64,000 bases of DNA from Myroides fluvii. GTDB taxonomy: Bacteria > Bacteroidota > Bacteroidia > Flavobacteriales > Flavobacteriaceae. The position numbers and the translations under genes are program-made. The stretch covers positions 310,001 to 374,000 of the forward strand of contig NZ_CP039934.1 in NCBI RefSeq assembly GCF_009792295.1, given 5' to 3'. The notes beneath the pieces are model-generated. The model saw only the letters and a list, made by a program, of their open reading frames with translations, had not been told where the DNA came from and ran no database searches. Numbering within the stretch: the stretch's first letter is position 1; every line of letters starts with the position of its first letter. This document shows, piece by piece, positions 22,661 to 64,000 of this stretch.

Positions 22661-22670
22661 TTTTTTGTTG

Positions 22671-22745
22671 TGGGCGATGAGGGATTCGAACCCCCGACCC
22701 TCTCGGTGTAAACGAGATGCTCTGAACCAGCTGAGCTAATCGCCC
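22671..22745 (-). tRNA. tRNA-Val (TAC), last in array
   Basis: A 75-nt cloverleaf: acceptor arms GGGCGAT and ATCGCCC, D arm GCTC/GAGC, anticodon loop TTTACAC with anticodon TAC, T loop TTCGAAT. CCA is not encoded. The anticodon stem is TCTCG/CGAGA, as in the copy at 23091. It is the fifth gene in transcription order. Confidence 0.97.
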
Positions 22746-22769
22746 GAATTGTATGTAATCTAAATATTG

Positions 22770-22844
22770 TGGGCGATGAGGGATTCGAACCCCCGACCCC
22801 CTCGGTGTAAACGAGGTGCTCTGAACCAGCTGAGCTAATCGCCC
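22770..22844 (-). tRNA. tRNA-Val (TAC)
   Basis: Same cloverleaf and anticodon TAC. The anticodon stem is CCTCG/CGAGG, differing from the two outer copies by a compensatory change at pair 27:43. It is separated by 24 bp from the next copy. Confidence 0.97.
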
Positions 22845-22867
22845 GAATTGCGTTAATTAAAAATATG

Positions 22868-22942
22868 TGGGCGATGAGGGATTCGAACCCCCGACCCCCT
22901 CGGTGTAAACGAGGTGCTCTGAACCAGCTGAGCTAATCGCCC
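22868..22942 (-). tRNA. tRNA-Val (TAC)
   Basis: Identical to the copy at 22770-22844 over the whole 75 nt as read. Anticodon TAC; CCA not encoded. Confidence 0.97.
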
Positions 22943-22966
22943 GAATTAACTTTTATTTAAATATTG

Positions 22967-23041
22967 TGGGCGATGAGGGATTCGAACCCCCGACCCCCTC
23001 GGTGTAAACGAGGTGCTCTGAACCAGCTGAGCTAATCGCCC
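22967..23041 (-). tRNA. tRNA-Val (TAC)
   Basis: Identical to the two copies at 22770 and 22868, with the CCTCG/CGAGG anticodon stem and anticodon TAC. Confidence 0.97.
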
Positions 23042-23090
23042 AAATAAATATTTCTATAAATTCGGAATATTTCAATATGTGTAAGAATGG

Positions 23091-23165
23091 TGGGCGATGA
23101 GGGATTCGAACCCCCGACCCTCTCGGTGTAAACGAGATGCTCTGAACCAGCTGAGCTAATCGCCC
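23091..23165 (-). tRNA. tRNA-Val (TAC), first in array
   Basis: First gene transcribed. The anticodon stem is TCTCG/CGAGA, as in the last copy. It lies about 34 nt downstream of the predicted transcription start. Anticodon TAC; CCA not encoded. Confidence 0.97.
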
Positions 23166-32232: not shown

Positions 32233-33339
32233 CTATCTCTTTTGCAAAATATTCGCAATATACTCTGAAGGAGATACGCCTTCAAATTTTTTAAAAGCTC
32301 TAAAAAAAGAGGTTCTAGAATTAAATCCACATTCATCACCTAATTCAGAAACTGAGATATCAAAATTTCTTTTCTCCAATAATTCTTTGGCGTATTCCAC
32401 TCGTAGTTTATTGATGTAGGCATTAAAATTCATGCCATAGGTTGTTGAAAAGAACTGAGACAAGTGGTGTTTGGCAATCTTGCTTTCACGTTCTAAATCA
32501 TCCAGTGTAAAATTGAGTTTGAGGTAGGATTTTTTGTCTTGCAACACTTGTTCTACCTTTACTTTATAAGTTTCTAAAACATCATCTGCAAGCTTTGATT
32601 TTTCATACTTCAACAACAGCTGCTCCTCTTCTACTGACACAGGTTGTGGAGCAGTTATGGCAACCACTTTGACGTATTTTAATCGCGTCATATAATAGTT
32701 AAATATCACGACAGAAAAACACAACAAAGCCAGGTAAGTCACTGAAAGATCGTAGTATAATATACTTCCGTAAAACACAACTCCCATCGAAACTAAAGCC
32801 ATGAAAATCATAATCCACATCACCCTTAAAATCAGAAGTCGGATATTGTTGTTCAGCATCAACTTATTGATTTTAAAGTACCCAGTAAATGCATAGCCAA
32901 TATACTGAAATACTTCAAAAGAGTAGAGTACCATTAAATAGCCGTAGGCTTCTTCACTGTCAATATCTGTCGATTTACTCACAAAATACCCATAAAAGGC
33001 CAGCAATAACAAAGTGGGAATGAAATGTAAAATAAAGAAAAAATACCTTGACGTATTGGTCACCACCTTATTCACTTCATCCGACAATAAAACCAAACAA
33101 CAATAAAATGTCGGTGCGTAAACAGTATTTAACGGCAGGCCTAAACTCAGAAATTTATAATCGGAGAACACAAGCCTCAAGCACAAGATTACAATGATAT
33201 GCAAAACAAAAAACAACAAAAAAGCATGAAGTGTTTTTTGTGTTTTTGTCGTTGTTGTCAGTGTGGAATTGACGATAAACGAGATGCTACCAAAAATAAT
33301 TGCAGCTGTTAATACAGCTAAGTTGAAATAAAATTCCAT
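32233..33339 (-). CDS. Membrane-embedded AraC-family regulator
   Basis: A 368-aa protein with about seven hydrophobic segments over residues 5-220 and a C-terminal AraC double helix-turn-helix over about 270-365. The first HTH includes LERESKIAKHHLSQFFS and the second the well-kept ELGDECGFNSRTSFFRAFKK. It has the same architecture as the gene at 17295-18416. It is the downstream member of a pair; 10 bp separate it from the gene above. Signal and targets are unknown. Confidence 0.83.
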   Translation of the reverse strand: MEFYFNLAVLTAAIIFGSISFIVNSTLTTTTKTQKTLHAFLLFFVLHIIVILCLRLVFSDYKFLSLGLPLNTVYAPTFYCCLVLLSDEVNKVVTNTSRYFFFILHFIPTLLLLAFYGYFVSKSTDIDSEEAYGYLMVLYSFEVFQYIGYAFTGYFKINKLMLNNNIRLLILRVMWIMIFMALVSMGVVFYGSILYYDLSVTYLALLCFSVVIFNYYMTRLKYVKVVAITAPQPVSVEEEQLLLKYEKSKLADDVLETYKVKVEQVLQDKKSYLKLNFTLDDLERESKIAKHHLSQFFSTTYGMNFNAYINKLRVEYAKELLEKRNFDISVSELGDECGFNSRTSFFRAFKKFEGVSPSEYIANILQKR

Positions 33340-33349
33340 ACCGATACTA

Positions 33350-34300
33350 CTAAGCTATTTGACTGCGATATACCGATGGTGTTTTTCCAACAAAAAGCTT
33401 AAAGTATTTATTAAAGGTTGATTTAGAACTAAAACCACATTCTTCAACAATGGCTTCAATGGTCAGATTATTGCGTTCTTGCAAAAGTTCTTTTGCATGT
33501 AAGATTCGATATTGAGCCACCATGTGATAAAAAGAAGAATTCAATTGGTGGTTGATTACAGTAGAAACTTCTTGTTTGCTCAAACCAACTGCTTCTGCCA
33601 AATCCTCTAAAGAAAATGAATTAGTCAAAAACTCATCACTTGTTTCAAAAAAGTCTACAATCGTTCGTTCCTTATCTTCAACAACATAGCTATAGGATTT
33701 AATATCCGCTTTGTTTACGATAAAAGTAGGTACTTGATTTAAAATGGTTTTGTTACTTCCATTGATCGTAACCAAACTCAGCAAACTGAACAAACAAACC
33801 AATACAGACAATCCCGTTTGAAAAAACACATATTCAATACCGAAGTCAGCATAAATATAGGTAACTAAAAAGAATATCACTTTAGCAATTAAACACGCAA
33901 TCATATAGTTGCAAAAGAAACCAATAAACCCTAAAACGCTTTGATTAGCCGAAGAAGGTTTTATCATCTTTGCTTCTTTGTAAATCAACATTAAATAAGT
34001 TAATACATAGGCAAAAATAAGTGATCCTATATATTTAAATGGGAATAAATTCGGCAATAAAATCATTAAGATCACAACGCTAAAATGCAGGATAAACTCT
34101 CCTACAGATGGTTCGATATGACTAGCCGTTTTTCTTGTAAAAAAATACAATAGCGGGATAGCTAAGTGAATAAAATTTAGATTTACACCTAAGTAAATCA
34201 CTACAAGTTGAATAAGAGATATTGCCAAAATACTTTTAACAATGCTCTCGAAGTTAAAATGGTTTTTTAAAGAACCATCAAATGTTTTAATTAGTTTCAT
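33350..34300 (-). CDS. Membrane-embedded AraC-family regulator
   Basis: A 316-aa protein with about five to six hydrophobic segments in residues 20-180 and a C-terminal AraC-type DNA-binding region (about 220-315). The helix-turn-helix motifs include LAEAVGLSKQEVSTVINHQL and IVEECGFSSKSTFNKYFK. It is the first gene of the second tandem pair and lies 10 bp before its partner, so they are probably co-transcribed. It faces a long gene-free region upstream. Confidence 0.82.
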   Translation of the reverse strand: MKLIKTFDGSLKNHFNFESIVKSILAISLIQLVVIYLGVNLNFIHLAIPLLYFFTRKTASHIEPSVGEFILHFSVVILMILLPNLFPFKYIGSLIFAYVLTYLMLIYKEAKMIKPSSANQSVLGFIGFFCNYMIACLIAKVIFFLVTYIYADFGIEYVFFQTGLSVLVCLFSLLSLVTINGSNKTILNQVPTFIVNKADIKSYSYVVEDKERTIVDFFETSDEFLTNSFSLEDLAEAVGLSKQEVSTVINHQLNSSFYHMVAQYRILHAKELLQERNNLTIEAIVEECGFSSKSTFNKYFKLFVGKTPSVYRSQIA

Positions 34301-41294: not shown

Positions 41295-41466
41295 GATACT
41301 GCTCACATTAGTAAACCGTTTTGATAAACTCAACACTAACAAATTAAAATGGGTGAATCATTGCTACTAAAGCATGCTGCATTTATGCAGATCCTTGAAC
41401 AGCAAGCTAACCCAAAACTTGTTTAAATCAGAGTTTATGCAACTCTACTGATGTGGGCTTTTTTTT
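41295..41466 (+). ncRNA. ssrS: 6S RNA (6S-Flavo type)
   Basis: About 170 nt with the closing stem, internal bubble and T-run end expected of 6S RNA. CTCACATTAGTA (41302-41313) pairs fully, allowing G-T, with TACTGATGTGGG (41446-41457). TAAACTC (41325-41331) pairs with GAGTTTA (41431-41437). The apical arm has further pairing, including CTGCA/TGCAG. TTTTTTTT follows the last stem. An alternative hairpin, TCAGAGTT/AACTCT-A-CTGA (41428-41451), would break the closing stem, as in the refolding step of known 6S RNAs. It lies directly after zapA, a conserved position. Confidence 0.8.
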
Positions 41467-50293: not shown

Positions 50294-51568
50294 TTACTTA
50301 GCATCTAAGTGAAGATAGCCCGTTTTCTTTACCGTATAACTTGTATTCTTCGTTTTTTTCTCATACGTAATGAGGTAATAATAGGTTCCTGCTGACAATT
50401 TACCTCCGCCTTTTTGAGTCCCTCTAAATACATTGCCTTCGCTATTGTAATTTTTAGTTTCGTAGATTTTTGTTCCCCATCTATTGAAAAGTTGAACCTT
50501 GTTGTTTGGGTATTTATCAATATTTTTAATGATAAAGTAGTCGTTGTTATCTCTTCCCGTAGCATTGACGTAATTGTAAATCACCAACTCATCATCCTCT
50601 GGTCCATTGTCAACCATACGTGCTAACGTAAAATATCCAAAATTAGAAATATTTGCTGGAGTGGTTATTGTTTTATTTTCCCTATCGACAACTCCTCCTA
50701 AATCTTCCCATTGCTTTACTGCTGAATTCCAATGAACAATGTGTAAATTTTGTTCGGTATTTTGTAACAAATCGGGCAATAGAGTATGCTCATCCCAACT
50801 TAATGTCAGCATAAAACTAGTTTGATTCTTTTTTGCTGTTTCGACCTTCCAATATTCACGGGTATTTATTTGTTTGATTTCAGGCACATGGGTTTGGTGT
50901 ATTTCAAAAAAAGCAGGATCATGATAGACATAATTACACAGTACGACATCCTTGTTATTTTTAGGAGCACTGATACTAGCTGGTCGATAGTGTTGTTTGT
51001 TTCCCACAGGAAAAATAAAGGGCTCTGCTCCTACTTTTTCTACCGCTCCATCAACAAAACTACTAGCGCTGCTATTTTTATATTTGGCGTTGGGCATAAA
51101 ACTCATCAATCCAGCGGGTTGATTGGTGACCGTATTGACAACAGCATCCACGATAATCACTCCTTCTTTAAAGTTAGCTTCTCCCCAAATATCGAGATTG
51201 GCTTTTAGATCAAACCAAAACGCTGTATTGAGATCAAAAGTAACCTTATGGAGGTCCACAACCTTGTTGCCTGCAATAATCGTATGTTGCTCTTTTGTAC
51301 TTACAAATCGCACTTCACCCGTGTCTAAGGTTTTAGTGTAGGTAAAAGCTCCATCATTAGTAAAATTCCCAAAGTAATACGCCAATCCATCATTGACTAA
51401 CTGTCCTTGTGTCTGATTGGAAAAATCCGAATACGAACTCAAAATAGTTTTACTATTCACTTGTAGTATTCCTTTGTTAAAAAAAACATTATTTTGCGCA
51501 ATCCCTATACTTGGACTACATACTATAGTACTAGCAAGCAGCAAATGAAGCGAGTATTTTTTTTTCAT
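50294..51568 (-). CDS. T9SS substrate with gliding-motility-type (type B) C-terminal domain
   Basis: A 424-aa exported protein with a signal peptide (cleavage near residue 24). The middle is a beta-rich surface region with no family I can name. The last 85 residues match the gliding-motility-associated sorting domain (TIGR04131/CHU_C): YPNNKVQLFNRWGTKIYET, a Gly-rich turn, then LSAGTYYYLITYE and a final GYLHL strand. In Flavobacterium johnsoniae such type B substrates depend on SprF-like proteins; a SprF-like gene starts the same-strand series 6 kb upstream. Likely cell-surface. Confidence 0.86.
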   Translation of the reverse strand: MKKKYSLHLLLASTIVCSPSIGIAQNNVFFNKGILQVNSKTILSSYSDFSNQTQGQLVNDGLAYYFGNFTNDGAFTYTKTLDTGEVRFVSTKEQHTIIAGNKVVDLHKVTFDLNTAFWFDLKANLDIWGEANFKEGVIIVDAVVNTVTNQPAGLMSFMPNAKYKNSSASSFVDGAVEKVGAEPFIFPVGNKQHYRPASISAPKNNKDVVLCNYVYHDPAFFEIHQTHVPEIKQINTREYWKVETAKKNQTSFMLTLSWDEHTLLPDLLQNTEQNLHIVHWNSAVKQWEDLGGVVDRENKTITTPANISNFGYFTLARMVDNGPEDDELVIYNYVNATGRDNNDYFIIKNIDKYPNNKVQLFNRWGTKIYETKNYNSEGNVFRGTQKGGGKLSAGTYYYLITYEKKTKNTSYTVKKTGYLHLDAK

Positions 51569-51682
51569 GGTATTCTAAATTAATCTCACTATTGGTTGAC
51601 TCATTGCCAAATAGCAAGGCATATGAAAATTATCATTTGTATTTCAATTGGCTAAAGCCCTATGTATCGATTAGATTTTGAC

Positions 51683-52825
51683 TTACTGAAGTACAGCGTT
51701 TTGCGGTTTATTTTTTGTTTTACAAACAGCATCTTCCGTTCGTTTAAAACTTTCATAACTCCTAAATCCACTGATCAGTATGAGATCTGCCTCTGTATCT
51801 TGTTCGGGATCACCTGTTGCTTTTAACCTGAGGTATTCGTTATACCTGCATTGGTTGATATATTGAGAAAAATTCTTTTTATACGTAGCATTAATAAATT
51901 GCGAGAGATAACTTCTGTTCGTCATTAAGTCACTCAAAAGGTCTGTAATTTTCAGTTGAGGATTTAAAAAGGGTTTAGTTTCTAGGATATAAGTTTCGAA
52001 CTTTTGCTTGTCAATTGCCAGTTCTTTTACCTTTTTACACCCGTCTAGGTCAAAATTCTTTTCCTCTTCTAAAATATCTTCTGTTATCTGGGCAAAATTT
52101 TCGCAAAACAGATTGTAACAAAGACTAATGTTAAAAAACATAAATAAAAAGTTAGGGATTAACTGCCCTACAAGAAGATTTGTTTGAAGTTGTGGAAATA
52201 TATAAAAAACAATAGATCCTGGAAATAACAAAAATCCAATAGCAAAAATGGGATAGAGCCAAAATAGAGAATCTCGTTCTTCGTCTGAAGAATAATTGGC
52301 AATGTTCTTTCTATACTTCAACAAGCGAAAGAGAGATAATAATAAATAAATTAAATTAAAAACAGTAGTTGTAATCCCCTCTTCATTGGAAAGCAAAAAA
52401 GTAAATATACTCTTCATTGGCAAAAGCCCTTCCATTTGTATTTCGAGCCCCGTAATGTGGTAGAAAAGAAAACCAAGACACAACGTCAAGGTAATTCCAT
52501 AGTGAAAGTATTTAAATTTTTCTTTCTTCTTCAAGCGAGTCAAGATAAAAATAAGATGATAAAACAAGGTAGGCATTAACAAAGTAGACAAAAAGTTCAC
52601 TCCTTTCAAGCAGGGTAAGCGCCAAATTTGAAATACTTCAAAAAACGTCGTACTATGAAAGAAAATGCAAACAATATAGAACAAGATCAAAACAAGGGTT
52701 GTTTTTCTCACCCCTACATCATTTTTATCATCAATTAGTTTAAGTCCCAATAAAGCCAAACAAAAGAGGGCTGAAAATATTGAGGAGGAGAATGATACTC
52801 CTAAAAAAAGGTATTCGTAATCCAT
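51683..52825 (-). CDS. Membrane-embedded AraC-like protein with degenerate C-terminus
   Basis: A 380-aa protein from ATG 52825, 10 bp after the upstream stop; a GTG at 52858 would overlap that gene by 23 bp. About seven hydrophobic segments cover residues 5-225, then an AraC-like region covers about 275-375. The first HTH (LLSDLMTNRSYLSQFINATY) is well kept. The second is worn: ILISGFRSYESFKRTEDAV keeps GF and F but lacks the usual F-x-R-x-FKK. DNA binding may be altered or depend on the partner gene next to it. Confidence 0.77.
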   Translation of the reverse strand: MDYEYLFLGVSFSSSIFSALFCLALLGLKLIDDKNDVGVRKTTLVLILFYIVCIFFHSTTFFEVFQIWRLPCLKGVNFLSTLLMPTLFYHLIFILTRLKKKEKFKYFHYGITLTLCLGFLFYHITGLEIQMEGLLPMKSIFTFLLSNEEGITTTVFNLIYLLLSLFRLLKYRKNIANYSSDEERDSLFWLYPIFAIGFLLFPGSIVFYIFPQLQTNLLVGQLIPNFLFMFFNISLCYNLFCENFAQITEDILEEEKNFDLDGCKKVKELAIDKQKFETYILETKPFLNPQLKITDLLSDLMTNRSYLSQFINATYKKNFSQYINQCRYNEYLRLKATGDPEQDTEADLILISGFRSYESFKRTEDAVCKTKNKPQNAVLQ

Positions 52826-52835
52826 AATTATTTTT

Positions 52836-53954
52836 TTATTGTTGTCGTTTTTCAGCACTTTGTACAGCTCTTAAATAATGGCGATAATCTGAAAATCCTG
52901 CCTGGAGTACTAAATCTTCCAGGCTGTTTTCTTTGCCTATTGCCTGAAGGTATTTCACTTCTTTCAGTCTCCAACAATTGATAAATTGACAAACATTACA
53001 ATGGTAGGTTACATTAATAAACTTGGACATATAAGTTCTATTAACACCAAAATAACTCACGAGGGTATCCAAGCGAAAATCCTTTTTGGTATAAGGTTTA
53101 TCTTTAGTAAAATAGTTGACAATATCTTGTTGTGTCAATAGGTTATCTACACCAGTATTCGAGTTAATAAATGTAGATTCTAACAGCTCATTTGCCAAGG
53201 TACCTGTTTGATCCACAGCGACAATCTGTCCTGAAGACAGCATTACATTAGTTTTATAGGCTACTGGAATTTTTATTCTATTTTTTTCCAACAACATATT
53301 AAATGTCAATATGATATGTTGAAAAGAAAGTACAAAAACCGTTATACCTTGTACAATAATGCTGTAATTGTTCAAACTAAAGAAAAGGGTGAATATCAAT
53401 TTAAAAGTCAAGATTAAGTGAACCCAATTCAATCTTTTAATTCGAATTTTTCGCTTGTTTTTTTCTTGGTGATACAAATACACTCTCCTCCAACACAGTA
53501 CCGTATAGACACCTGTATTTAGGGTAATATAAATGCTCAAATATCGAGCGGAAAAAGTTTGAAAGTCCAATTGTTGATACCCATTGGTTTGTGCCAATGC
53601 ATAAATAAAAGCATAAGACAGCACAAATACGACAAAAGTCATTTGATATTGCAAATAGTTAAACTTCTTTTTTGCTGGAATGATATAGCAAATAAAGTGG
53701 TAAAAACACACCTGAGACAAGGTGATAAACAACGACATCGCTGGGAGCAAAAAAAGGCGACCTCCCGTTAATTTCTGTGTTAGATTATCTGTAGCCCACA
53801 AAGCTATTAAAGCTAAATAATATCCTCCTAAGGTTCTTAAAATTGGTATTTCGGTTACGGAAAGGTTTTTATAAAAAACTACCATTAGAATAATTCCACA
53901 TGTCATAGATGAAATCATTGGAATGGAAATTAAAATGTACTTCAATAGTTCCAT
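52836..53954 (-). CDS. Membrane-embedded AraC-like protein with degenerate C-terminus
   Basis: A 372-aa protein with about seven hydrophobic segments over residues 5-220 and an AraC-like tail over about 275-372. The first HTH is recognisable (LVSYFGVNRTYMSKFINVTY). The second ends early: VLQAGFSDYRHYLRAVQSA keeps the GFSD core but lacks the FKK and P-x-x-YR tail. It resembles its downstream partner in layout and in wear. It lies in the T9SS-linked locus, about 100 bp after the CI-like HTH gene. Confidence 0.77.
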   Translation of the reverse strand: MELLKYILISIPMISSMTCGIILMVVFYKNLSVTEIPILRTLGGYYLALIALWATDNLTQKLTGGRLFLLPAMSLFITLSQVCFYHFICYIIPAKKKFNYLQYQMTFVVFVLSYAFIYALAQTNGYQQLDFQTFSARYLSIYITLNTGVYTVLCWRRVYLYHQEKNKRKIRIKRLNWVHLILTFKLIFTLFFSLNNYSIIVQGITVFVLSFQHIILTFNMLLEKNRIKIPVAYKTNVMLSSGQIVAVDQTGTLANELLESTFINSNTGVDNLLTQQDIVNYFTKDKPYTKKDFRLDTLVSYFGVNRTYMSKFINVTYHCNVCQFINCWRLKEVKYLQAIGKENSLEDLVLQAGFSDYRHYLRAVQSAEKRQQ

Positions 53955-54056
53955 TGTTTTTTCTTTTACTGTTCTATTTTTACTAGCTTTTTTATTTTAT
54001 AAGCGCTCAATTAACAATAGCAAAAACACCTTTATTTCTTCTACACCCTCACATGC

Positions 54057-54701
54057 TTAACAAGGTAAATGTTTGATCCACTGAAACACTTCAATTATTT
54101 CACTTTCTTTTACCGTGTAAGTTTCTCCCGTATCTTTTTTTAAGTAAAGCACCTTTTCCTGCTGATCTACTTGTACTAGTTGATGGCTTATAAAACCTTT
54201 TTTAGCTAGTAAAAACACAAAGTTTTGACCTACTTCAACAGTTGAAAAATCTACCTTTTTGCAAAACACATAGACCAAGGACGATTTCTCCTCTCCTTGT
54301 ATTGTAGCATATAGTTGAATCACAATATCGAAGCAAACTTGTTTGGGGTAATAAATTTGTTTGAGTTTTTGATATTTTCCTTCTATACTCAAATAGTATT
54401 CCAAATAATCGTTGATGTAAATAATTGGTATATTTATATAGTTCTTTTCAATGGTTTTATTGGGATAATCAATAAAAAATAATTCATTTAAATCGATACC
54501 ATATTCGTTACACACTTGAATTAACTTGGAGTAACACAGTGTATTTCTCTTTTTCCAAGAGGAAATCGTATTGGGTTTTAAATTAAAAATAGAGGCTAAT
54601 TCTTTTGCTGACTTTACACCTAATAAAATTTTTAATCTAGTTAAAATTTCTTTTGAAGAATTAATCACCTGCGGTGATTTTGTTAATTGACTGTTCATCA
54701 T
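54057..54701 (-). CDS. Phage-CI-like HTH regulator
   Basis: A 214-aa protein. Residues 15-75 form a lambda-repressor-type HTH in the style of the phage CI family (LLGVKSAKELASIFNLKPNT, then ISSWKKRNTLCYSKLIQVC). The C-terminal 130 residues are beta-rich, with a strand pattern compatible with an S24-like fold, but I cannot identify the Ser/Lys dyad. No phage genes are near. A 28-bp dyad (54769-54796) and a smaller one (54734-54745) lie just upstream, fitting autoregulation. Confidence 0.78.
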   Translation of the reverse strand: MMNSQLTKSPQVINSSKEILTRLKILLGVKSAKELASIFNLKPNTISSWKKRNTLCYSKLIQVCNEYGIDLNELFFIDYPNKTIEKNYINIPIIYINDYLEYYLSIEGKYQKLKQIYYPKQVCFDIVIQLYATIQGEEKSSLVYVFCKKVDFSTVEVGQNFVFLLAKKGFISHQLVQVDQQEKVLYLKKDTGETYTVKESEIIEVFQWIKHLPC

Positions 54702-54733
54702 AGTTCTGTATCATTATACTTTTACCTTTTTTA

Positions 54734-54745
54734 GTTGCAAGCAAC
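54734..54745. promoter_or_regulatory. Small dyad upstream of CI-like gene
   Basis: GTTGC and GCAAC surround AA, 33 bp before the start of the HTH gene. It is short, and is offered as a possible operator only. Confidence 0.35.
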
Positions 54746-54768
54746 GAGTTTGGTAAAATAGGATAAGT

Positions 54769-54796
54769 AATTCAGGTGAGTGCACCCACCTGAATT
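54769..54796. promoter_or_regulatory. 28-bp near-perfect dyad, candidate operator
   Basis: AATTCAGGTG at 54769-54778 and CACCTGAATT at 54787-54796 are exact inverted repeats around a GTGCAC core; only one symmetric pair (54779/54786) fails to match. There is no T run directly after it on either strand, so a terminator is less likely. It lies 68 bp upstream of the CI-like gene start and 16 bp after the stop of the preceding gene. Confidence 0.6.
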
Positions 54797-54811
54797 CAAT
54801 AAAGTAAAAAT

Positions 54812-56065
54812 CTATTTTGCTGTAAACTCTAGGATTACTTCATAATCACCCTCTGCTATCGGAAAATACATTTTTCCATTTCCGAGGTTAAAATCTACTT
54901 TGGTTTGCATTTCGTGAATAATAACATCTGTTACTACAGTAGTAACGAGTTTTTTTCCGTCAAAAACCTGAATATTCAATACGCGATCAATATGTCGTGC
55001 TTCAGCAGGTAGCTTGCCGTCAATCTCTATTCTTTTTGCTTTAGCCCCTGTAATTTTTGTTGAGGTCTTGTAGATAAAAACAGCATCGCCATCAATTGTA
55101 TTTCCTGTTTTTATCACCTTATCTGTCGTAATTTTATTTCCTATTTCTTCTTTTATAATTTGCGTATTGTTTGTAATGGAATTAATCACCGTTTCCGACA
55201 AATCGGCCACTACTTTTTCATTCGTTTCTGGGTCAATATAATAAACACTATTAGCTGGAATATCATCAATAGCATCTACCGTAAAATAAACGTTTCCACC
55301 TTGATTTAAAATGTTGGTAATTTCATTTTTGATGGTTTCATTGTTCTCGATAATAGTAGTCACATCAGCAGTAAGATTCAGGTAATCTACTCGATTGTCC
55401 TCTCCTAAATATTGGTAAAATACTTCCCCTTTTTTGGTCGTTGTAAAATCTGGAGCCACATTGACGTCAACAAAAACCGGAGCTTGTCCATCCTCTTCAA
55501 TTTTTGCTTTTTTAAAGAAAGTACGCGTTTCAAATTCTTTGATATTTTCTTCTAATTGTACAGGAGTACGGATATAAGCAGAAGTAGTTTCATCGTAACT
55601 GATGCTGTAGATTTTACCGTCTACTGGATCAATAACAAGGGCGGCTTGACTCAATGCTTTATCGCTACTATTAGGGTTTGTAGGAACTAAGACATCCACT
55701 ACTCTTTTCAGTTCACCTAAATTAAGTTGATCACCATTCCCATTCCCATTAATGATATTGGTAACTGAGGTTTCTAAAGTTACTTGATCTATAATTTGAT
55801 TCCACTGATTGGCATTCCAAAAATAAAATCCTTTGGGTAAAGCATCTCCTGTATTAAACACAAGTAAACTTTCAACTTGTTCTCCTTCAATTGGAGAAAA
55901 ATTAGTTTCATTGGTCAATTGTACTCTTGGAATTAAAATCCCTTTATTTCCTGCTTCTACATCTAACATAGCCGAATTAGCTGGTGTAGGAGTTCCAATA
56001 CCTACTTGTGCATTTGCTGCAAAATTTGCGCCTAATACTAGCGCGAAGAATATAATTCTTTTCAT
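54812..56065 (-). CDS. Secreted surface protein with GIGTPTP-type N-terminus
   Basis: A 417-aa protein with a signal peptide (cleavage near residue 19). It then has QVGIGTPTPANSAMLDVEAG and KGILIPRVQL, an N-terminal motif common in large secreted proteins of Bacteroidota, often followed by fibre-like repeats. Residues 215-300 contain a repeat-like run (TTIIENNETIKNEITNILN, then NSITNNTQIIKEEIGNK). I see no T9SS sorting domain. It follows the 295-aa gene by 23 bp and probably shares its transcript. Function is unknown; a surface structure is inferred. Confidence 0.74.
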   Translation of the reverse strand: MKRIIFFALVLGANFAANAQVGIGTPTPANSAMLDVEAGNKGILIPRVQLTNETNFSPIEGEQVESLLVFNTGDALPKGFYFWNANQWNQIIDQVTLETSVTNIINGNGNGDQLNLGELKRVVDVLVPTNPNSSDKALSQAALVIDPVDGKIYSISYDETTSAYIRTPVQLEENIKEFETRTFFKKAKIEEDGQAPVFVDVNVAPDFTTTKKGEVFYQYLGEDNRVDYLNLTADVTTIIENNETIKNEITNILNQGGNVYFTVDAIDDIPANSVYYIDPETNEKVVADLSETVINSITNNTQIIKEEIGNKITTDKVIKTGNTIDGDAVFIYKTSTKITGAKAKRIEIDGKLPAEARHIDRVLNIQVFDGKKLVTTVVTDVIIHEMQTKVDFNLGNGKMYFPIAEGDYEVILEFTAK

Positions 56066-56088
56066 ATATTAAAATTTATTTTTTATTT

Positions 56089-56976
56089 TTAATTCAATTT
56101 TTCAATGATAATATTGATTTGTTTTTTAACGTTGTATGAACTGTTATCTGGTAGTCCTATTGCAGTAATGCGATACATTTCAGCAGTAGCCTCAAGTGCA
56201 ATAATAATTACGCCCATTTCGTTTTTAGATAGCCTTAGATAATCATAACCATTCCCATCATCACGATACATATAATTCCAGCTACGAGAAGAAAGTTCTT
56301 TTGTACGATAGATAGTAGTAGTGACAGTAGGACTGCTTAATCCTTGTTTGCTAAACCATATGGATGCAATATTGGGACGATTGACATCATACTTAAATTG
56401 CAAATAGGCTAAATCTTTGAAAGGATTCCCTTTACTACTAAACAAATCAACTGCTCTTACACAAAAATCCCCTATTCGTATTTCCGAATTAACTTCTATA
56501 TTACCTTCCCATAAAGTGGCTTTACTTGCACGGCGAATTCTATCCCAAGAAATAATATCCCATGATCCGTTGTGATTGCTTACAATAGACATATACTCAC
56601 CAGGAAGAAGCTCCTGAGAACCAACGCTAGTACCATAAGCATTACCAGCTCTAAACCCCTGCCCTGACTGTGTTTTAACCGTTAACTTTTTGGTCGGTGA
56701 CATATTTTTAATTTGATACGTACGTCCTGTAGCTAAATCATTCATTTTAGCCGTTGTAGGTAACACAAAAGTCCCATCTCCCGTAGCTCCCGTATAGGTA
56801 AGCGTATAATCATCATCGTTGATATCATAAGGTGAAGTCCCAGATATTTCGTGGTATTTACCCGAAAATGATCCATTAACGGTTAGCGTACTTGACGCAT
56901 TAGGAGTATTAATCCCGACTTGAGCCCATGACAAACCTGTTGTTAATACCATGGTAATCCATAGTCTTTTTTTCAT
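56089..56976 (-). CDS. Secreted surface protein, related N-terminus to its neighbour
   Basis: A 295-aa exported protein with a signal peptide (MKKRLWITMVLTTGLSWA, cleavage near residue 18). It begins QVGINTPNASSTLTVNGSF, matching the pattern of the next gene's N-terminus. Residues 45-150 resemble a fibre-like beta region (TYQIKNMSPTKKLTVKTQSG). No sorting domain or enzymatic motif is visible. It is the second gene of the SprF series, about 600 bp after it, and 23 bp before the 417-aa gene. Confidence 0.73.
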   Translation of the reverse strand: MKKRLWITMVLTTGLSWAQVGINTPNASSTLTVNGSFSGKYHEISGTSPYDINDDDYTLTYTGATGDGTFVLPTTAKMNDLATGRTYQIKNMSPTKKLTVKTQSGQGFRAGNAYGTSVGSQELLPGEYMSIVSNHNGSWDIISWDRIRRASKATLWEGNIEVNSEIRIGDFCVRAVDLFSSKGNPFKDLAYLQFKYDVNRPNIASIWFSKQGLSSPTVTTTIYRTKELSSRSWNYMYRDDGNGYDYLRLSKNEMGVIIIALEATAEMYRITAIGLPDNSSYNVKKQINIIIEKLN

Positions 56977-57584
56977 TGCGAACTTGTTTAATTTTCTGTT
57001 GCAAAGAAATTGCTACTCTTCAAAAAAAATTAAATAAAAAGTAAAAAACTAGATGTAAATATAATTTTACACTTTTATTTTTTGTAAAAAACAGAGATAA
57101 CAATCATAAAAAAACAAAATAAACCACTCAAACACAATTAATTAAGAATTGGACCCATTTCTCTATTTATTTTATTTCAATTCTATACATAAATAGAAGA
57201 AAAAGGTATATTTCTAAAGAAATGAAACAAAAACCTCTTAGAAAAAAATGGGAATTCATCAATTTGCACCCTTCAACGGTATAAAAAAGAAAGTGCAGGA
57301 AAAAAAGTAGTATAATCACATAGTAAATCCTTTCTAAATCTCCCTATATGTGCCATAAGGTATGTCTTCCTGCTTTTCGATTTTTTGTCCCTTGTTGATT
57401 TTTATTTATCCATTGCTTTCAGTCCTACCAGACTTTACGAACGGAGCCTATAGTGCAATAAAAAAGAAGAACAGCGTTCTTCCTTTTTCCATTAAAACTT
57501 ATTTTATTTGACACCGCTAAAGCATTACAGTTGTATTTTTCACCACGATCAAACGGTCAATACAATTAACTTCAAGTGCTTTTC
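56977..57584. other. 608-bp intergenic region
   Basis: AT-rich, with no gene seen. It holds a terminator-like hairpin for the SprF gene (57466-57482) at the right and presumably the promoter of the 295-aa gene at the left; I find no exact TANNTTTG there. Confidence 0.6.
57466..57482 (-). terminator. Terminator-like hairpin after sprF-like gene
   Basis: GAAGAAC and GTTCTTC pair around AGC, followed by a T run on the minus strand. It lies about 100 bp past the stop codon. Confidence 0.7.
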
Positions 57585-58514
57585 TTAAAAAAATCTACGC
57601 GTACTTTTAGTATTAGAATTCCATCGTCCTCCCCAGTCAAAACGCATAAAGAGTTCATGTGTTCCTACATTGTAGTGATTTAATTTTGTCGTATCAAAAT
57701 CATATGCATAACCGATAAACCAATTTGAATCAATTTGAAAGCCTGTTAGAGCACTAAAGGAGGAGTTCCAACGATAAGAAGTACCAATAGTGAATTTCTC
57801 TTGAAACAAGAAATTGGCCGTTACATTCATTTCAGTTTGCCCCTTGCTAATTTTAGATAAAAAGGCTGGTTTTAACAACCAATCAGCCCCTAAGTCAAAG
57901 ATATACCCTCCCATTAAATAGCATACAGGATACTCGCGCATGGTTATTCTTTTTACATCATCGTAATAATCAACAGTAAACATTTGAGGAACTGACAGTC
58001 CTAAATAAGCCAGATCGGAATAAAAATAGGCTCCTGCACCAATATTCGGACTAAATTTATTGCTAAAATCATCGTAATTAAATGGTCCTGCTTGATCATA
58101 AATATTCAGTTTTGAATACGATAAACTCAACAAATTAACATTCCCTTTTACCCCTAAGGCTAGTTTATATACTGCATTTAGATTAACGGTATAAGCTAAA
58201 TCTACGGCAATGTTATTTTCATTCATAGCACCAATATGATCATTGGTAAAATTAACTCCTAATCCCAATTTAGAATTTTGTAGGGGAGTTGTAACTCCAA
58301 GGTTTGCCGTTTTAGGCGCCCCATCAATCCCCATCCATTGATTGCGGTATAAACCAAAAATACTAATCGATTCTCTACTCGCCGCATAAGCGGGATTAAT
58401 TGTTGTTGGATTATACATATATTGAGTATACGTCGGGTTTTGTTGAGCAAAAAGTACCGAACGAAAACCAAATATCAAGAGGCTTACACCTATTCTAGTT
58501 AGTTGTTTTCTCAC
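57585..58514 (-). CDS. PorP/SprF family type IX secretion outer-membrane protein
   Basis: A 309-aa protein with a signal peptide (cleavage near residue 23). Its N-terminus, NPTYTQYMYNPTTINPAYAAS, is the hallmark of the PorP/SprF family. The remainder is beta-barrel-like and includes GFQIDSNWFIGYAYDFDTTK near the C-terminus. SprF-like proteins are needed for surface export of particular T9SS type B substrates in Flavobacterium johnsoniae and usually sit near them. Here a type B substrate (50294-51568) lies in the same-strand series. Confidence 0.9.
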   Translation of the reverse strand: MRKQLTRIGVSLLIFGFRSVLFAQQNPTYTQYMYNPTTINPAYAASRESISIFGLYRNQWMGIDGAPKTANLGVTTPLQNSKLGLGVNFTNDHIGAMNENNIAVDLAYTVNLNAVYKLALGVKGNVNLLSLSYSKLNIYDQAGPFNYDDFSNKFSPNIGAGAYFYSDLAYLGLSVPQMFTVDYYDDVKRITMREYPVCYLMGGYIFDLGADWLLKPAFLSKISKGQTEMNVTANFLFQEKFTIGTSYRWNSSFSALTGFQIDSNWFIGYAYDFDTTKLNHYNVGTHELFMRFDWGGRWNSNTKSTRRFF

Positions 58515-59211
58515 AGATTGTTATATTAAATTAGTTATTTGCAAGGAATAGCCGTTAACGATGGCTCTATTTATACAGGAGTGAACCTCGTGTTGAGAAA
58601 ATCAAGACTTTCCAATCTTGCTTAAGTATCTAGTGGAAATTTCAGAAACAATAGGTCGTTTTCTATGTATCGTACTTTACCTAGGTAAAAGAAGTTTGCC
58701 TATTTCAGGCAAACTTCTAGGAAACAACAGTGTAACTCTTCATGATTTCATTATAATCTCATCTGATTATTCTCTGGAATTGAACAACAGCGCAAACAAA
58801 CTCTTGTTTAATTCCTGTGTTTATTATTTTTTTAAATAGAGAGAACATCAAGAATCAAATAGGAAATCATGTAGTGAACAAATAATACTTTTCTTTTTCA
58901 CAAGGCAAAATTGAAGAAACAACAGACAAAAAAAGGCGTAAAGTGTAAATAAAAAAAATATTAAAATCAAATTAATAAAATAGCAATACCAATTGATCAA
59001 ATATCAAAAGCAAAAAATTAATGCGCTCTTTCTATTAGACTCTAACACATCGTGTAAGAAAAAAATGGCGCGTTGTTGTTCCTTTTTTATTCACAGAACA
59101 ATAATGCTAAACTATCAGGCAAATATTTTAATTTAGCTGTTTATAGCGGAAGTAAAATACATCCTAGATGATTTGTATCCACGCATTCTGTTTTCGAATT
59201 AATCGTGACCT
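58515..59211. other. 697-bp intergenic region with palindromes
   Basis: No convincing gene. A 14-bp palindrome and an adjoining 12-bp hairpin (58676-58718) are listed separately. Promoters for the minus-strand sprF-like gene and the plus-strand Crp/Fnr gene must lie here, but neither is clear. Confidence 0.6.
58676..58718. promoter_or_regulatory. 14-bp palindrome joined to a 12-bp stem hairpin
   Basis: TTTACCTAGGTAAA (58676-58689) is a perfect palindrome. It is followed at once by AGAAGTTTGCCT (58690-58701), a 5-nt loop and AGGCAAACTTCT (58707-58718). Only a short T run (four) follows on the minus strand, so a terminator is possible but not strong. It lies about 160 bp upstream of the sprF-like gene. 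Confidence 0.55.
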
Positions 59212-61265: not shown

Positions 61266-64000
61266 TTATTTTTTTACTGCAAATTTGATTGTCTCTCTTT
61301 TTCCATTTAATTCAAAAACAGCTACATACATCCCTCCTTGTATTGTTTGAGGCAAGTAGATCTCTGTTTGCTCTCCTTCTATTGAAAAGGTATGAACTAA
61401 CTGTCCATTTAAATTGAATACTTGCACTGGAATTCCTCTCAATTGAACTCCAGTAACGTGTACTTCTAGGGTTGTTCGTTGTCCCAAGGTCACGGGATTG
61501 GGATACAATTGAATGACTGCTTTTGCAGCGGTTGTCTCTTCCATTGGACAAACGTGAATCTCCTCTCCTTCTGCGGTTTTAACAATTGCGTGATATACAG
61601 CTTTATGATCTAATATGGTCATAGCCCCAGCAGAGTATACTTGCTCTTCTGATATCAAACTTCCATTTTTAAACCACTTAAATCCAACGAAATTGTAACC
61701 GCCATTCGTTTTTGGATTTTTGTTAATCAACAAGGTGTTATTAAACTTTTGTACTGCAACATCGGCAAAGGCAAACGGTTTCTCAACTACAATGACATAA
61801 GTTTCTTTTACTTTTCCATTTTGTGAAACCACAGTGACCATTTGTTTGTAAATACCTGGTTTAGGTACAGCTAGTATAAATGTAGCACTAGGGGTAATTT
61901 GAGCGCCCTCATCTACAGCAATTTTCACCGCTACTGTTGTGCGTAAATCTTCACAACTCATTACATGATAAATTTCACTCTGAGGTTTGGTATACTGTTG
62001 CTCTTCAATCCAGATATCGTGTATCGTGGCATCGTTGTTTACAATGCGCAGTACTCGAGTTACAGCAGTTGCTGGATGATAATTCTTATCTCCTACTTGC
62101 GTTACAGTAACCGTAATTTCCCCTACTTTTTTAAGTGTCACCCAACCTGTTGTACTCACTTCAGCCGCTGATTGAGTACCGGCATAGGTATACGTATATT
62201 GTAAAGGTAAACCCGACGATGTGGCCGCCTGAAGTTGAAAATCTTCACTCTCGTCTAAGATTAGGGTTTCCAATTCATCAAATCGAATTTGTTGATTTGC
62301 CTTTTCTATTTTCAAAATAGCAACTAACTCTGCATTTTGATAGTTGTTTCCACCACTAATTTTTGCTTTAACTTCATAAGCTCCGACCTCTATTTTTCCA
62401 TTGTTGATGTGTTCTACAGTCACTCCTTGTGGCAATGATCCTGAAACAAAAATATACTTCGCAGTGCCGTCATACGTAAATGTTTGTCCTTCAAATTGGA
62501 TGTGTTCAATAGCTGCTTTCCCAATTTTCAAAGTCGCGCGAAGCGTGATATTTTCGTAATCATTCCCTCCTTGAACTACAGCAATAACGGTATAAGTTCC
62601 CACGGCTACCTTGTCATTACCTTGATAGGTTACACTTACACCTTCAGGTAAATTTTGTATCGTAATTTGCTTGGCTGTTCCATCGTAAACGAAAGTAGCA
62701 TCTTCAAATATTAAACCGGATAAAGCATGTCGAATTTGAAGAGTAGCTTCTAGCCTATTGTCTTCGTAGTTTAGTCCACCATGAAGCAATGCTATAGCCG
62801 TATAATCTCCTACCTCTACCTGTTGATTGCCGTCGTACGTTACACTTACTCCTTCCGGAAGTACGCCTGTAATTTCAATGGTCTTAGGTGTGCCATCATA
62901 TAAGAATGATTCATTGACAAATGTGATTCCTCTAATCATTGCTTTGGTAATTTCCAGCGTTCCTACTTCGTATTGAATATTGTAATTCACCGATTCATAC
63001 CCACTTGCTTCAACAGTATATATTCCTACGTTCACGGCGTCTATAGCAGCTCCATCATACTGTAATGTTCCGTGTAATACATTTGCCCCTTCACCATATA
63101 CAAACCCTTGATAAGTTACATTCCAGGTTGTATGTGCTCTTCCGTCATACACCTTCGTTTGATTACTTGGTAAAACCGTCAACGGAGCTCTATCTACATG
63201 CAGCGTAAATCGCACTTCTTCAGCTGGTAAATATTCGGTATTCCCAGCTTGATTAACCAGAACTTCTGTTTCTCCAGCTCCTTTTATCACAATCCTACCT
63301 CCTTCAATCGCAGCAACAGAAGTATCTGTTATTGTATAGGTCAAAGGCAATTGACTTGTGGTTTCACCTACTAGAAACGGAACATCTCCGTATATTTTAT
63401 TGACATCCTCTACCGAAATAACTTGTTCTTTTACCTTAATCGTGGTAAAGTTAATTTTTTGCCATGTAGAACAATTCGCTGCAACACGCACGTAAACGTC
63501 ATACGTTACTTCTGGAGACAATCCTTGTATTTGTTGCGTATTCGTTGCATTTTCTATTAAAGTTCCCTCTCCTTGTACAAATCCTTCTACGCCATATTCT
63601 ATTTCGAAAACAGTAACCGTAGACGCAATTTGTAGCGTTGCTGTTTCCTCTCCAATATGTTCTATATTGAGTTGAACTGGTGGACAGCGCAAAGCTTCAA
63701 TATCAATAATCACTTCTATTTCTCCATATTTTGTGGCATGCTGAACCGCAGTTGCTCTTACTTTTACCACTCCATTAGCCAGAGCAGTAACGAGCCCTTG
63801 TTGATTGACTAATGCAAATTCGGCGCCTTCAACAAGAGACCATGTCACGGTTTGACTTGCTTCAGCTGGGGTTATGTTGGCTAAGAGTTGTATTGTGCCA
63901 TTTTCGGTTGTAATCGCAGCAGGAATATTGTTTTCTGTAATCACGTTTACTGCAGTTATTTCAACAGCAGGACGTTGAATATCTAACGTATAATCCTCTA
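61266..64000 (-). CDS. Large modular adhesin with MBG-type repeats and T9SS type A sorting domain (partial)
   Basis: The reading frame stays open to the right edge, so the start is outside; at least 910 residues are visible. From the visible N-terminal side the order is a Big_2-like Ig domain, an Fn3-like domain (VTYDVYVRVAANCSTW), a beta region, one MBG_2/YDG-type domain (VLPSNQTKVYDGRAHTTWNV), then three tandem MBG-like repeats of about 70 residues (each with F-x-YDGT-x-K and VTY-x-G-like marks), a further Ig-like domain, a Cys-containing beta domain and the T9SS type A C-terminal domain (VIQLYPNPVTLGQ, then GMYVAVFELNGKRETIKF). It would be exported by T9SS and fixed on the cell surface. 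Confidence 0.88.
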   Translation of the reverse strand, partial: EDYTLDIQRPAVEITAVNVITENNIPAAITTENGTIQLLANITPAEASQTVTWSLVEGAEFALVNQQGLVTALANGVVKVRATAVQHATKYGEIEVIIDIEALRCPPVQLNIEHIGEETATLQIASTVTVFEIEYGVEGFVQGEGTLIENATNTQQIQGLSPEVTYDVYVRVAANCSTWQKINFTTIKVKEQVISVEDVNKIYGDVPFLVGETTSQLPLTYTITDTSVAAIEGGRIVIKGAGETEVLVNQAGNTEYLPAEEVRFTLHVDRAPLTVLPSNQTKVYDGRAHTTWNVTYQGFVYGEGANVLHGTLQYDGAAIDAVNVGIYTVEASGYESVNYNIQYEVGTLEITKAMIRGITFVNESFLYDGTPKTIEITGVLPEGVSVTYDGNQQVEVGDYTAIALLHGGLNYEDNRLEATLQIRHALSGLIFEDATFVYDGTAKQITIQNLPEGVSVTYQGNDKVAVGTYTVIAVVQGGNDYENITLRATLKIGKAAIEHIQFEGQTFTYDGTAKYIFVSGSLPQGVTVEHINNGKIEVGAYEVKAKISGGNNYQNAELVAILKIEKANQQIRFDELETLILDESEDFQLQAATSSGLPLQYTYTYAGTQSAAEVSTTGWVTLKKVGEITVTVTQVGDKNYHPATAVTRVLRIVNNDATIHDIWIEEQQYTKPQSEIYHVMSCEDLRTTVAVKIAVDEGAQITPSATFILAVPKPGIYKQMVTVVSQNGKVKETYVIVVEKPFAFADVAVQKFNNTLLINKNPKTNGGYNFVGFKWFKNGSLISEEQVYSAGAMTILDHKAVYHAIVKTAEGEEIHVCPMEETTAAKAVIQLYPNPVTLGQRTTLEVHVTGVQLRGIPVQVFNLNGQLVHTFSIEGEQTEIYLPQTIQGGMYVAVFELNGKRETIKFAVKK

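Follow-up and report, generated by a model that had tools for sequence, protein, structure and literature searches.

A type B/PorP locus of Myroides fluvii with a putative membrane AraC pair and an associated promoter box

In Flavobacterium johnsoniae (SprB-SprF, Fjoh_3952-3951), a type B or type B-like substrate of the type IX secretion system (T9SS) and an outer membrane protein of the PorP/SprF family are encoded at one locus; each protein of such a pair has its own orthologues in relatives, the shuttle gene lies directly downstream of its substrate, and three substrates are orphans (PMC12618676). A PorP-family protein and a type B substrate are likewise joined in PorE-PorP-PG1035 of Porphyromonas gingivalis, where PorE is part of the complex (PMC9143113). 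The same two sources describe PorP/type B pairs as usually specific and PorP proteins as anchors of type B proteins, and propose PorE for static complexes (PMC12618676, PMC9143113). On the regulatory side, ToxR/ToxS and VtrA/VtrC are transmembrane transcription regulators in which a DNA-binding membrane protein is accompanied by an adjacent partner (PMC10269533, PMC9214523). Here we describe a seven-gene locus at positions 50,294 to 58,514 of a 64,000-nt stretch of the Myroides fluvii genome (contig NZ_CP039934.1, positions 310,001 to 374,000, forward strand; hereafter the window), which is of the already known type B/PorP kind but carries an unusual control module. In what we regard as its best explanation, and one with an even chance of being right, a type B-like substrate, a PorP partner and two signal-peptide proteins form a set that is switched, via a shared promoter box, by a pair of membrane AraC-like proteins. 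Limited searches of the literature on Myroides type IX secretion and on Myroides odoratus AraC met no account of this locus.

The seven open reading frames (ORFs) reported in an initial annotation of the window are all present and all on the minus strand. Read downstream, they encode PorP, a 295-aa protein, a 417-aa protein, a CI-like helix-turn-helix (HTH) protein, two AraC-like proteins (AraC1 and AraC2, with closest relatives labelled Myroides odoratus and Myroides sp.) and a 424-aa protein, with 608 nt between the PorP and 295-aa genes and 23 nt between the 295-aa and 417-aa genes. The PorP/SprF assignment is secure, as the protein passes both curated models (PF11751, 250.5 bits against a cut-off of 22.3; TIGR03519, 240 bits against 90.55). 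The 424-aa protein has a CHU_C T9SS domain (74.1 bits, cut-off 27), and its orthologues in M. odoratus XSfan (L026) and Myroides sp. 1354 (L027) score 38.3 and 35.2 on the type B model TIGR04131, above the cut-off of 35 that the window protein itself misses; its annotation as a type B substrate is retained on these grounds. A SprB-type gliding adhesin, which is a very large repetitive protein, was considered and rejected, the substrate having just 424 aa. At L027 (12391-12806), the start of the type B gene is doubled, a 99-aa piece being followed by the full gene with the same N-terminus.

The arrangement of the locus departs from that of the described pairs. The window genome, a single contig of 3.77 Mb, has 12 PorP/SprF genes, and the stretches around all of them were read: 11 directly follow a type B gene, either short (six, 429-490 aa) or long (five, 1217-1980 aa). 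The window PorP is the sole exception, lying upstream of its type B gene with five genes between, three of them regulators, whereas the shuttle gene of F. johnsoniae is directly downstream of the substrate. The comparison with SprB/SprF made in the initial annotation is imperfect: both families occur at one locus, but gene order and adjacency differ. The locus also differs from the P. gingivalis complex in its lack of an adjacent PorE: a PorE-like gene (~650 aa; the one product checked has OmpA, PD40 and carboxypeptidase-regulatory domains) comes next in five of the six short-type loci, but none was found beside the window PorP among the window ORFs or in the fetched stretch. On the published PorE model, this would suggest either a complex without attachment to the cell wall or the use of a PorE encoded elsewhere. 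Same-strand QVGI-type genes, relatives of the 417-aa gene that are named for an N-terminal motif, occur in the fetched stretch of five of the six short-type loci, and these proteins, although they have no recognised sorting domain, are steady neighbours of type B loci, which raises the question of their export route. Over 22 pairs, PorP distances correlate with the distances between the C-termini of the paired type B proteins (r 0.883, 0 of 5000 permutations). Part of this correlation comes from the division of the type B proteins into long and short ones, and profile-based naming of partners was right for only 4 of the 12 own PorP/type B pairs. At two distant type B loci of the window genome (L043 and L044, at ~3.29 and 2.75 Mb), the PorP genes have an identical Pfam score of 281.4 bits and the PorE-like proteins begin alike, which looks like recent duplication.

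Within a genus sample of 398 genomes, the order of the locus is kept in three relatives, G098 (locus L046), G290 (L050, on the contig of L026) and G382 (L052, on the contig of L027), as PorP, CI, QVGI (414-422 aa), CI, AraC1, AraC2, type B, ended by a gene that we take to be thioredoxin-reductase-like; the shared genes are ~69-84% identical to those of the window. The synteny on which the initial annotation had made its proposal depend is thereby established in three genomes. The relatives have a complete type B-PorP-PorE operon just upstream, its PorE ~1 kb away, which the window lacks, and the 295-aa gene is not found at the same site in any of the three. In the window, that gene separates the 417-aa gene from the aligned QVGI promoter, and where the relatives have their first CI gene there is only a hairpin, which aligns to the 3' end of that CI gene. 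A fifth genome, G281 (L049), retains the AraC pair together with two CI genes at this position and has no orthologues of the 417-aa and 424-aa proteins, the best whole-genome matches being 146 and 335 bits, compared with 643-665 and 674-709 bits for the orthologues in the three relatives.

The regulators recur as a unit. AraC1-family genes were found in 5 of the 398 genomes (E 1e-10), and these five hold nine loci with the CI-AraC-AraC trio, namely the window and L046 to L053. All nine fetched stretches include a PorP gene, of which L049, where the contig begins, has just the end, and eight include a type B gene. In the two single-contig genomes, each of the four AraC1 genes has a PorP gene no more than 8.5 kb away, against a random mean of 0.24 (0 of 20,000 draws). 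It might be argued that this is an ordinary type B/PorP locus into which unrelated regulators were inserted, the neighbourhood having no functional meaning: with 12 PorP genes in the window genome a PorP neighbour is less surprising, G281 keeps the trio without orthologues of the 417-aa and 424-aa proteins, and two further AraC-like genes in tandem (window 32233-34300, minus strand), whose products of 368 and 316 aa have predicted membrane segments and match the AraC1 hidden Markov model (HMM) distantly, have no PorP or type B gene among the ORFs listed around them. Company with PorP at nine of nine loci of differing arrangement, and a box before PorP in four genomes, make this rather improbable in our estimation. 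The multiplicity of AraC1 loci (three in G098, two each in G290 and G382), the exchange of places between the 295-aa gene and the first CI gene from genome to genome, and a transposase-like ORF between CI and AraC at L048, where AraC2 is in two pieces, would fit a cassette that duplicates or moves and so makes the surface differ between strains, with regulation secondary. The window locus, however, has the same neighbours in five genomes and no recombinase among the ORFs read there, and we judge a primarily mobile role very unlikely.

The promoter box is a new element of this analysis. It consists of TTTTTACA[C/G]TTT followed 30 nt on by TTTG, and it stands before PorP, QVGI, 295-aa-type and some CI genes, also where these lie away from the trio. 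It first emerged from aligned intergenic regions, as a block common to the QVGI promoters of the three syntenic relatives and the DNA preceding the window's 295-aa gene. Of the eight cassette loci besides the window, seven (L046 to L052) have GTTTTTACACTTT, at no more than one mismatch, ahead of a QVGI, CI or 295-aa-type gene; the forms at L053 and in the window are diverged. A genome search with TTTTTACRCTTT-N30-TTTG, allowing one mismatch and with the reversed pattern as control, returned 36 matches in the five AraC-pair genomes against 11 for the control, and 21 of the 36 precede family genes (10 QVGI, four PorP, three 295-aa-type, three CI and one AraC1). Exact matches number 12, 10 of them before family genes; the other two stand before a small lipoprotein-like gene beside a 295-aa-type fragment and among unrelated genes, respectively. 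Six of the 36 matches had served to define the box, and half of the 30 outside the defining set (15) precede family genes: PorP at each of the four syntenic loci, a QVGI operon that in four genomes lies next to a presumably metK-like gene, one more QVGI gene, three CI genes, one AraC1 gene and two 295-aa-type genes not linked to the trio. The orthologous PorP genes in G098, G290 and G382 are preceded by the same form of the box as that of the window. In the two single-contig genomes, 11 of 21 matches are within 1.5 kb of a family gene coordinate, where the random mean is 0.69 (0 of 20,000 draws).

Two regulators of the locus could be served by the box. CI-family genes are present in 45 of the 398 genomes, 40 of them without an AraC1 match, and 12 of the 40 were searched as AraC-less controls: there were no exact matches, and 21 one-mismatch matches compared with 15 for the reversed pattern, with no PorP, QVGI, CI, AraC, type B, PorE or 295-aa-type gene recognised in the stretches around those 21. 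Within the five AraC-pair genomes, the eight loci with CI and QVGI genes and no AraC pair (L055, L056, L057, L059, L060, L062, L063 and L067) also have no box at up to one mismatch. If the CI-like protein were to bind the box and repress the set, the AraC pair serving another signal and other targets, one could point to the company the CI-like genes keep, as 20 of 28 matches have a QVGI or 295-aa-type gene no more than 2.5 kb away (eight do not) and, in the two single-contig genomes, 7 of 10 have a QVGI match at up to 3 kb (random mean 0.32; 0 of 20,000 draws), and to the three CI genes that have the box themselves. The missing excess in the AraC-less genomes and the box-less CI loci speak against this arrangement, which we consider unlikely; they link the box instead to the AraC pair, by association inside a single clade. 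Since the excess is seen in the five AraC-pair genomes and is not clear in the twelve without, the AraC regulators probably switch the predicted surface structure on.

The position of the box is also informative. Its fixed distance from TTTG, before unlinked genes, would be in keeping with a site for an alternative sigma factor or another clade-limited regulator, with the AraC pair as a passenger, and the sprB-sprF operon of F. psychrophilum is driven from alternative sigma sites (PMC9723704). The concentration of the box at AraC loci counts against this possibility. So does the 30-nt distance between box and TTTG, which exceeds the usual spacing of sigma-factor sites, and we hold the sigma-site explanation to be improbable. 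Flavobacterial promoters have a TAnnTTTG box at -12 to -5 (PMC9723704). If the TTTG found here is the end of such a box, the 12-mer falls at about -50 to -39. This is the usual place of activators that touch RNA polymerase.

The predicted properties of the AraC pair are consistent with such a role. In the AraC1 model, seven long helices make up the N-terminal part and an AraC-like end with two HTH units comes after them, its match to solved AraC-type domains being weak (E 4.8e-3 at best), and HTH_18 is matched by all 24 aligned AraC1-family members (E <=0.1; best 3e-7), in agreement with the initial call of two membrane AraC-like proteins. The likeliest start of AraC2 is the conserved ATG at 52825 (380 aa) rather than the GTG at 52858, which places the gene 10 nt after AraC1. 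The pair resembles ToxR/ToxS and VtrA/VtrC in combining a putative DNA-binding membrane protein with an adjacent partner, but differs from them in that each of the two proteins carries an AraC-type end behind some seven predicted membrane segments; the union of membrane segments and DNA-binding domain in one protein is given by hydropathy and model prediction only. The third regulator was correctly recognised as CI-like, with a PF07022 HTH (35.4 bits) in common with CI/S24-type repressors. Unlike these, it has no Peptidase_S24 match (PF00717, E 0.1; matched by 14 of 26 aligned CI relatives) and belongs to a chromosomal surface-gene locus.

Taken with the published work on F. johnsoniae and P. 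gingivalis, the results suggest a model in which the 424-aa protein would leave through the T9SS translocon and be taken up by the window PorP, which likely carries and anchors it, while the 295-aa and 417-aa signal-peptide proteins likely join it outside the cell. AraC1 and AraC2 would act as an inner-membrane sensor pair that binds the box at an activator site next to RNA polymerase, and the CI-like protein may tune or reset the QVGI operon. A bolder version, in which two seven-helix AraC receptors shaped like G protein-coupled receptors work as a pair that directly switches a T9SS regulon via one promoter box, and in which duplication of a cassette made up of this pair, a CI-like partner and the target surface genes gives a Myroides lineage several separately sensed coats, is possible though doubtful. 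The proposal of a regulated T9SS surface locus is strengthened by synteny, by the recurrence of the trio with PorP and by the shared box, and its suggestion of an appendage goes beyond the evidence; that the locus is inducible is an inference. Little seems to be described, to judge from a limited literature search, of how Bacteroidota choose among their many PorP/type B surface systems, and the locus offers defined regulators, a promoter box and target genes, with a single protein that may serve both as membrane receptor and as DNA-binding activator.

Several observations weigh against switching of the set by the AraC pair. Fifteen of the 36 box matches lie elsewhere than before family genes, and the window genome has no exact box, its six one-mismatch matches comparing with three for the control and only three of them preceding family genes. 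The box before the window 295-aa gene has two mismatches and hence falls outside the genome count, and no box was found before the window type B gene or the window AraC genes. The 12 control genomes were picked irrespective of QVGI or PorP content, and any other factor confined to the five AraC-pair genomes would give the same pattern. At the protein level, the HTH_18 scores of AraC1 and AraC2 (20.4 and 16.7 bits) are below the cut-off of 33.6, as is the TIGR04131 score of the 424-aa protein (30.2) below its own, and neither the 417-aa nor the 295-aa protein matched any Pfam or NCBIfam family, sorting domains included, at E 0.1.

The two signal-peptide proteins had been described as sharing a QVGI-x-TP-x-x-x-S pattern, which holds for the 295-aa protein (QVGINTPNASS) and not for the 417-aa protein, where one extra residue precedes the S (QVGIGTPTPANS). 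Neither BLAST at 1e-4 nor HMMs at 1e-6 gave a match between them, and what they have in common is therefore a short motif near the N-terminus, behind the signal peptide. The structure predicted for the 417-aa protein is poor except for a C-terminal beta-sandwich; T9SS export of the two proteins, or a role as fibre or appendage, is conjectural. The 417-aa family (P0031 and relatives) is labelled PF26696 in the protein database, yet the Pfam search at E 0.1 gave no match. At L060 and L062, a CI gene is followed by five and six QVGI-type genes, respectively, on one strand.

The intergenic regions hold further conserved blocks (Table 1). The PorP leader is long (window 58515-58905, minus strand), and its terminator-like hairpin, kept in four genomes, is possibly a leader terminator or attenuator, or the end of a small RNA of ~200 nt. 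Upstream of the PorP box, TTGATCAATTGG is possibly a second regulator site, and the hairpin between the 417-aa and CI genes could protect the end of the QVGI mRNA.

Table 1. Features of the M. fluvii locus, with positions in the window
Feature	Position	Strand	Basis
PorP/SprF-family outer membrane protein, 309 aa, GTG start	57585..58514	-	PF11751, TIGR03519
295-aa protein, predicted signal peptide, QVGINTP start, orphan family	56089..56976	-	
417-aa QVGI protein, predicted signal peptide, modelled C-terminal beta-sandwich (315-417)	54812..56065	-	
CI-like HTH regulator, 214 aa	54057..54701	-	PF07022
AraC1, 372 aa, predicted seven-helix membrane part and AraC-type DNA-binding end	52836..53954	-	
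AraC2, 380 aa from conserved ATG, about seven hydrophobic segments, weak AraC-type match	51683..52825	-	
424-aa T9SS substrate, CHU_C / type B sorting domain	50294..51568	-	
Short block TTGATCAATTGG upstream of PorP box, largely kept in four syntenic loci	58989..59000	-	Alignment
Box before PorP: TATTTACACTTT, N30, TTTG, one mismatch	58906..58951	-	Genome pattern search
Hairpin and T run between PorP box and PorP	58690..58718	-	Folds in 4/4 syntenic loci, about -17.5 kcal/mol each
Hairpin matching that after the relatives' first CI gene	57466..57482	-	Alignment
Upstream repeat TTTTTACAAAAAATAAAA; TTTTTACAAAAAGTAAAA in L046, L050 and L052	57073..57090	-	
Diverged box before 295-aa gene: TTTTTACTTTTT, N30, TTTG	57002..57047	-	Aligned with exact QVGI box of L046, L050 and L052
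Hairpin without T run between 417-aa and CI genes	54771..54794	-	Folds in 4/4 syntenic loci

Just outside the locus, the window encodes an 892-aa protein (61266-63944, minus strand) with MBG and immunoglobulin-like domains, whose T9SS sorting tail is weak (18.6 bits, cut-off 27). Elsewhere in the window are five consecutive tRNA-Val genes with anticodon tac (22670-23165, minus strand) and a 6S-Flavo RNA (41328-41436, plus strand).

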